Shown piece by piece: positions 29,011 through 34,253 of a stretch of 39,084 nucleotides of DNA (its first letter is position 1; each line of letters opens with the position of its first letter). Below the pieces are notes generated by a model. The model saw only the letters and a program-made list of their open reading frames with translations. It did not search any database and was not told the origin of the DNA. The DNA is taken from assembly GCA_018057825.1 (NCBI GenBank), contig JAGPCY010000058.1, forward strand, positions 1-39,084, in the 5' to 3' direction. The position numbers and the translations under genes were made by a program. The stretch is from Kofleriaceae bacterium. GTDB lineage: Bacteria; Myxococcota_A; Polyangia; Haliangiales; Haliangiaceae.

Positions 29011-31622
<2,612 letters not shown>

Positions 31623-31650: not shown

Positions 31651-31866
31651 TCACAGCACCACCTCCGCGGCCTCGCCCTGGCGGTTGACGAAGCACACCG
31701 CGTCGCCGCGTCGCCGCGCCGCCAGCGCCAGGTCGTAGAGGCCCAGGGCCTTGGACAGGACGCCGAGGTAGTCCTCGGTGTCCTCGCCGGCGCAGATCCG
31801 GGCCAGGAGCTCCGCCAGCGTGGGGTTGAGCTCGATCGTGACGGGGGCTTTTCCGCGGGGGTCCAT
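31651..31866 (-). CDS. Small protein, possible ribbon-helix-helix type, in prkA operon
   Basis: 71 aa from ATG at 31866. Starts with a [17 protein letters not shown] strand-helix pattern, then [20 protein letters not shown] and ends in a [15 protein letters not shown] strand pair. Similar small proteins with an alternating helix and a final strand pair occur as MetJ/Arc-like regulators, but I cannot assign a family with confidence. It is not part of the canonical prkA-yeaH-spoVR set and could be a specific regulator of this operon. Confidence 0.55.
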
Positions 31867-32210
31867 GGCCAGCTCAGGGGGGCGTCTTACAGGTCGTCTC
31901 GGTTGGAGCCCCTGGCGAATGCCGGGGGCGTCTTTGCGAAAAACCTCAGGGTACTCACGATGCGTCGGTCAGGGGCTCTGGGCCGTTTCGGGTGGGGGCC
32001 CCGGCGCATGCCGGGGGAGGGTCTTTTCGAAAGACCCTCAGCATATTCACGGGGGTGGGGGCGGGGTCGTTGCACAGACCTCAGGGTACTCACGATGCGT
32101 CGGTCAGGGGTTCTGGGCCGTTTCGGGTGGGGGCCCCGGCGTATGCCGGGGGAGGGTCTTTTCGAAAGACCCTCATCATCTAACGGAGGGTCTTTGCGAA
32201 AGACCCTCTA
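31867..32210. repeat. Repeat-hairpin element between prkA and the small gene
   Basis: Two direct copies of 102 bp (31943-32044 and 32078-32179, 3 mismatches, 135-bp period), with a shorter diverged unit to the left (about 31907-31942) and a hairpin-only unit to the right (32186-32208). Each full copy holds two hairpins, a CCCCGGC-GCAT-GCCGGGG stem (31999-32016) and a 10-bp GAGGGTCTTT/AAAGACCCTC stem with loop TCG (32017-32039; second copy 32152-32174). It lies just 3' of prkA and upstream of the small gene. Richer in A and T than surrounding sequence. Confidence 0.9.
32186..32208 (-). terminator. Hairpin directly after prkA (attenuator or terminator candidate)
   Basis: 10-bp stem GAGGGTCTTT/AAAGACCCTC with loop GCG, beginning 3 bp beyond the prkA stop on the minus strand. 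There is no U run after it in that direction, so a classic intrinsic terminator is not proven; it may instead stabilise the prkA mRNA 3' end or reduce read-through into yeaH. Confidence 0.45.

Positions 32211-34228
<2,018 letters not shown>

Positions 34229-34253
<25 letters not shown>

Follow-up and report, generated by a model that had tools for sequence, protein, structure and literature searches.

A dispersed double-hairpin repeat at gene ends, represented in the prkA operon of a Kofleriaceae bacterium

Why the interval between prkA and the next gene of its operon should be filled with nearly identical, palindromic DNA, and whether that DNA serves the operon or belongs to the genome at large, is the question raised by this locus. 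The window, meaning the whole 39,084-nt stretch that was analysed (Kofleriaceae bacterium, GTDB family Haliangiaceae, GCA_018057825.1, contig JAGPCY010000058.1), carries a minus-strand operon in the order prkA, repeats, ORF71, yeaH/DUF444 and spoVR. A preliminary description of the interval had reported a 71-aa open reading frame, a 102-bp pair, partial copies and two hairpins, all of which were recovered in place.

Repeat units between prkA and ORF71

The features of the operon are listed below in window coordinates, scores being those of R1, a covariance model built from 37 copies.

32211-34253, minus strand: prkA (PF08298 and PF06798), with its stop codon TAA at 32211-32213
32186-32208, minus strand: unit of hairpin 1 only, an exact family match, 2 nt past the prkA stop
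32175-32185, minus strand: 11-nt leader CGTTAGATGAT, preceding the first full unit
32119-32174, minus strand: first full core unit (87.1 bits, E 9.8e-14), with hairpin 1 at 32152-32174, hairpin 2 at 32134-32151 and a C-rich tract plus AAACG at 32119-32133
31984-32039, minus strand: second full core unit (86.2 bits, E 1.4e-13), with hairpin 1 at 32017-32039, hairpin 2 at 31999-32016 and a C-rich tract plus AAACG at 31984-31998
31895-31945, minus strand: third, decayed unit (38.7 bits, E 5e-4), with decayed stems of hairpin 1 at 31925-31948 and of hairpin 2 near 31911-31928
32078-32179, minus strand: 102-bp local duplicate, first in operon sense (repeat search)
31943-32044, minus strand: 102-bp local duplicate, second in operon sense (repeat search)
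31651-31866, minus strand: ORF71 (71 aa)
30507-31622, minus strand: yeaH/DUF444 (PF04285), downstream
29011-30507, minus strand: spoVR-like gene (PF04293), downstream

On the operon strand the unit comprises about 56 nt, consisting of hairpin 1 (GAGGGTYTTT/AAARACCCTC), hairpin 2 (CCCCRGC/GCYGGGG) and then CCCCCNCCCRAAACG, and the gene-sense consensus reads GAGGGTYTTTCGNAAARACCCTC, CCCCRGCATNCGCYGGGG, CCCCCNCCCRAAACG. The two 102-bp copies share 97% identity at a period of 135 bp, with about 79 nt separating the two full double hairpins. The 102-bp repeat described earlier is therefore real as a repeat but is a local duplication, the unit found across the genome being the core of about 56 nt. 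Leader and hairpin 1 are duplicated in tandem as one unit of about 34 nt (spacing 34), as they likewise are at L139, L191 and L200.

The first full core unit adopts a two-hairpin fold of -31.1 kcal/mol (z -3.3), and the region folds far more stably than its shuffles (RNA folding, z = -5.6), while the number of hairpin-1 matches expected in shuffles of the window is zero. No Rfam covariance model matched the region, either at the gathering threshold or at E values up to 0.5. ORF71 is a conserved small protein, with 69-89% identity across six related genomes, each time adjoining prkA, and it has no family match in Pfam or NCBIfam, in agreement with the earlier view of it as a small gene of no known family.

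Distribution among genomes and insertion history

A search with R1 returns at least 133 matches in this genome (G000; 84 contigs, 8.9 Mb), forming about 65 clusters among the matches listed, and at least 140 matches in a sister species (G003). Five further species of the genus, and the remaining family members that were searched, have no R1 matches. Across the phylum, weak multi-copy matches occur in G220 and G389, both complete genomes from a different family, in which a second model, R2, finds at least 31 and at least 61 matches, respectively; the unit of these genomes (GAGGGGTCTTGGAAGACCCCTC, CCCCCGACCGGCRRAGCCGGATCGGGG, CCCCCNCCCCAAACG) has the same architecture in a different sequence. 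Extended to the class, the R2 scan matched 19 of 317 genomes in several families. The element has no match in viral contigs (searched by exact pattern) or in phage and plasmid collections, and the open-licence literature contains work on REP elements near stop codons and nothing on this family in Myxococcota.

The history of the prkA site can be read from five element-free sister species, all of which conserve the ORF71 protein. In two of them (L223 and L224) the prkA stop and the ORF71 start overlap as TGATG, and in two others (L227 and L226) they are 2-11 nt apart, with L225 as the exception, having a longer gap. Since the prkA stop is at or near the ORF71 start in four of the five sisters, the presence of the element here is derived, by insertion. 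The ends of groES, iscS, rplK, ssb, clpX and carD read in element-free sisters also lack the element (gene ends obtained through a single family search, its query a concatenation of ten C-termini, used for fetching only). In addition, occupied and free orthologous ends are found between G000 and G003 (L094/L177, L109/L195, L097/L179, L104/L154 and L106/L143), and at sites occupied in both species the subfamily often differs. About 18 of 69 upstream genes are occupied in both, against a chance expectation of about 1 (the cut being about 70% identity across most of the protein length), so that either some of these sites came by descent or certain genes are preferred in both species. It can be stated with high confidence that the repeats are a dispersed insertion family; the mobile palindromic repeat, one of the options in the preliminary description, is upheld by the number of model matches, by occupied and empty orthologous sites and by the narrow, patchy species range.

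The junctions follow a pattern of their own. In G003, linkers of 6 nt go with gTGA or gTAA (18 of 20) and those of 7-8 nt with cTGA (28 of 28; p = 3e-11), typical junction sequences being gTGA-TYCAGA and cTGA-GACCTTG. Where a stop would stand, internal copies of arrays and the copy past a tRNA-Leu have a leader resembling CGTGTTNNNGA, so that the stop codon, or a point just ahead of it, seems to be where the copied stretch begins. From these junctions we infer, short of proof, that the site of joining may be picked by short homology. The sequences of occupied and empty sites have drifted too far apart for target-site duplications to be compared. At the prkA site of G003 (L168 1574-1720), an ORF71-like start, ATGAGCGATCCGCGCGGC, precedes the element and the current, similar start follows it, as if the ORF71 start region had been duplicated on insertion.

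Units of a local array follow one another head-to-tail in the sense of the gene, and exceptions are rare. In G000, arrays that repeat at about 150 bp are seen at C12:174265-174793, C79:5838-6517 and C78:25131-25795, where downstream units often retain no more of hairpin 1 than its 3' half and carry a common motif like GTTCAGCCGCTGTCTGCTTCAGCGC. Two other kinds of repeat keep company with the element. In several copies (L138 near 3050 on the minus strand, G000:C46; L104, L106, L087 and L135), hairpin 2 is interrupted by a different element, about 200 bp long, whose terminal inverted repeats read GAGCAGCGAACGGTTGGAATGCC ... GGCATTCCAGCCGTTCGCTGCTC. Long, low-complexity tracts of 6-bp units also trail elements in 3' intergenic regions, reading CTCGGTCTCGGA in G000, downstream of many copies (L087, L089, L096), and GGAGCCGGAGTC in G003 (L143, L175).

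Placement relative to gene ends

Placement was scored for all G000 loci among the matches listed and for 80 G003 regions, with genes called by a simple codon model. In G000, every one of the 70 clusters with an upstream neighbour lies downstream of that gene in the same sense, as do 103 of 107 clusters in G003, and the distance from stop codon to element start peaks at 6-8 nt. Starts fall between -2 and 15 nt from the stop in 58 of 71 cases in G000 and 81 of 109 in G003, whereas 3.5% and 6.4% of intergenic strand positions, respectively, lie that close; the binomial p < 1e-70 is indicative only, because copies at orthologous sites occupied in both species are not independent. Where the start lies 25-60 nt past the stop, an additional hairpin-1 unit intervenes in most cases, and in two cases of apparently opposite sense an uncalled open frame ends 0 or 6 nt upstream. 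In the fetched regions, divergent gaps contain no clusters (0 of 64 and 0 of 53). A clear upstream gene end is lacking for a single copy in G003 (L163) and a single array in G000 (L100).

The remaining exceptions are informative. Copies lie 5 nt past a tRNA-Cys in G000 (L123), 7 nt past a tRNA-Cys in G003 (L204) and after a tRNA-Leu (L146), and one G003 copy (L158) directly follows the apparent ncRNA of a type-XIII-like retron. As the genuine exceptions trail tRNA or retron RNA, the anchor is the gene end and not the stop codon as such. At the retron locus (L158 1245-3100, G003:C165) the order is an apparent inverted-repeat ncRNA, the element copy and the RT gene; G000 has a retron RT of its own (L252) and a Drt6-like RT (L260), and no element was seen ahead of the L252 RT.

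By the gene calls, most of the 57 copies examined in G220 and G389 begin no more than 15 nt from the end of a gene in the same sense, typically 8 nt past TGA, with the codon-score test also passed by 39 of the 57. The strict gene-end rule is thus demonstrated for four genomes, drawn from two families. Among other Polyangia, some have an apparently looser link to stop codons or an unparsed context; G108 has one copy a few nt past a tRNA-Gly. That the element is anchored to gene ends is practically beyond doubt.

The genes upstream are many and unrelated. Pfam searches of about 70 of them identify the ribosomal proteins L11, L27 and L6, EF-Ts, IF-1, IF-2, IF-3, RNA polymerase omega, GyrB, LexA, GroES, ClpX, CarD, SSB, glutamate dehydrogenase and an Omp85 protein, and another is an aminotransferase class-V protein, IscS-like by appearance; the set is clearly, to the eye, rich in translation and core genes. 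The suggestion that the hairpins form an attenuator tuning the ratio of prkA to yeaH finds no support, because the same element trails about 70 unrelated genes as well as tRNAs; the element is not a regulator specific to prkA.

A transcription terminator or attenuator for prkA is a very improbable function. The element does resemble an intrinsic terminator in having a stable hairpin right past the stop codon, and some copies have a further downstream hairpin with a T-rich tail. However, hairpins 1 and 2 are trailed by a C-rich tract and not a U-tract, the sequence is a homologous repeat, and copies often lie inside operons, as behind prkA, groES and rplK. Furthermore, terminator-like signals are about equally rare with the element (9 of 70 and 7 of 102) and without it (8 of 108 and 11 of 98), and no enrichment was found.

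Placement also bears on whether the repeat is simply selfish, landing anywhere and being spared by selection at gene ends, where it does least harm. Its narrow and patchy range, variants that differ by species and nested arrays all fit this explanation. Purging alone, however, predicts antisense copies and distant copies in convergent spacers, whereas orientation is nearly uniform in both species, distance peaks at 6-8 nt and the junction correlates with the bases at the stop codon; survival of this kind is possible, if rather unlikely, as the whole account.

Stem pairing, related repeats and a candidate mechanism

Preservation of pairing in both stems is robust. In the R1 alignment, pairs are intact in 98.3% of cells and five pairs are altered on both sides, with a covariation score (0.139) above that of all shuffles and all slid registers. 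Both hairpins covary, the sequence changing while the pairing stays, and the stems of hairpin 2 are very diverse (GGC/GCC, AGC/GCT, ATTCGC/GCGAAT, TTTTCGGC/GCCGAAAA, CAC/GTG and others). The preliminary description expected, were its idea wrong, stems broken by uncompensated changes and no fixed relation to genes; other copies instead show compensated stems and a fixed gene relation.

It had also taken exact pairing as support for a function at the RNA level, and here the pairing stands while the proof does not, because template-switch repair of quasi-palindromes can likewise keep them perfect. Such repair, in place of RNA selection, is a doubtful though not negligible source of the paired changes, and is compatible with the other explanations. 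Stems are mostly perfect with few intermediates, and in hairpin 1 there are 15 G-U against 9 A-C pairs, no clear excess (the hairpin-2 counts for G220 and G389 are spoiled by a bulge); as wobble pairs are not clearly above A-C, the pairing does not demonstrate selection on the transcript. Template switching nevertheless leaves unexplained the orientation and gene-end placement, as well as the persistence of hairpin 2 across differing sequences and lengths. An RNA role of the double-hairpin element is, on the sequence evidence, likely and unproven.

REP elements are the nearest known kind, and the family is REP-like in where its units sit. REPs and BIMEs are short, dispersed extragenic palindromes of more than 100 copies, with species-specific variants and local clustering, mostly beside ORF 3' ends and likely transcribed (Di Nocera and colleagues, PMC3733652), all of which is shared by the element. 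Unlike them, it has two dissimilar hairpins in fixed order, a gene sense almost without exception, arrays that are head-to-tail and not alternating, no linked RAYT, and copies behind tRNAs and retron RNA.

That the element is a REP family moved by a Y1 transposase of the RAYT type, at targets such as CTGA or GTGA, is highly unlikely. Most REPs do lie less than 20 bp from ORF 3' ends and sometimes provide the stop codon, REPs of the CGTC type exist without a dedicated transposase (PMC3733652), and the 5' junction here is often (C/G)TGA at a set distance from the hairpin. Nevertheless, G000 has many copies despite having no match to Y1_Tnp, and in G003 the Y1 genes are unlinked to elements, 2 of 17 lying within 2.5 kb of a listed element, which is about chance; Y1 genes are also present in element-free sisters. 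No GTAG or CGTC tag was recognised at the hairpin foot in printed copies and leader tallies read by eye: leaders read TGAGACCTTG, TGATYCAGA or CGTGTTNNNGA, and the 3' side has AAACG followed by variable bases, spelling CGTC in one subfamily only. Tests of tag, alternation and RAYT having failed, and the unit being composite and polar, the family is therefore not filed as a REP member.

ERIC, NEMIS and similar MITE-like intergenic repeats are non-autonomous, transcribed and endowed with stable RNA folds. The element is likewise non-autonomous with a stable RNA fold, but it differs in having a fixed position and polarity to the upstream gene and no terminal inverted repeats, the aligned core copies running from GAGGG to AAACG without inverted ends.

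On balance, the prkA element is probably one locus of a dispersed, non-coding, gene-end double-hairpin repeat, copied by trans-acting machinery and serving as a 3'-UTR barrier. A trans-acting machinery would copy the unit to gene ends, where it would be co-transcribed as the first part of the 3' UTR; hairpin 1 would block 3'-to-5' RNA decay and may thereby set the 3' end of the mRNA, or the unit may act in processing on the 3' side of the message. At this locus, insertion would have parted prkA from ORF71, which elsewhere overlap or lie a few bases apart. Whether such an RNA-level 3'-end barrier would be the main effect is evenly balanced. As for the machinery, no linked enzyme was found among the RVT_1 genes, which are few in number and occur in element-free species as well. 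It is unlikely that a machinery sensing where a transcript or its translation ends copies the element specifically to gene 3' ends in sense, as it might by way of an RNA intermediate that is joined in at the stop codon or close to it; if true, this would be a new targeting mode for mobile DNA.

Bacterial repeats near gene ends are known, while their polarity and spread remain puzzling. Here polarity and distance are near-absolute in two myxobacterial families, with occupied and empty sites among close relatives, and the family makes the old question of REP-like repeats, whether they are targeted to gene ends or survive there, directly testable.
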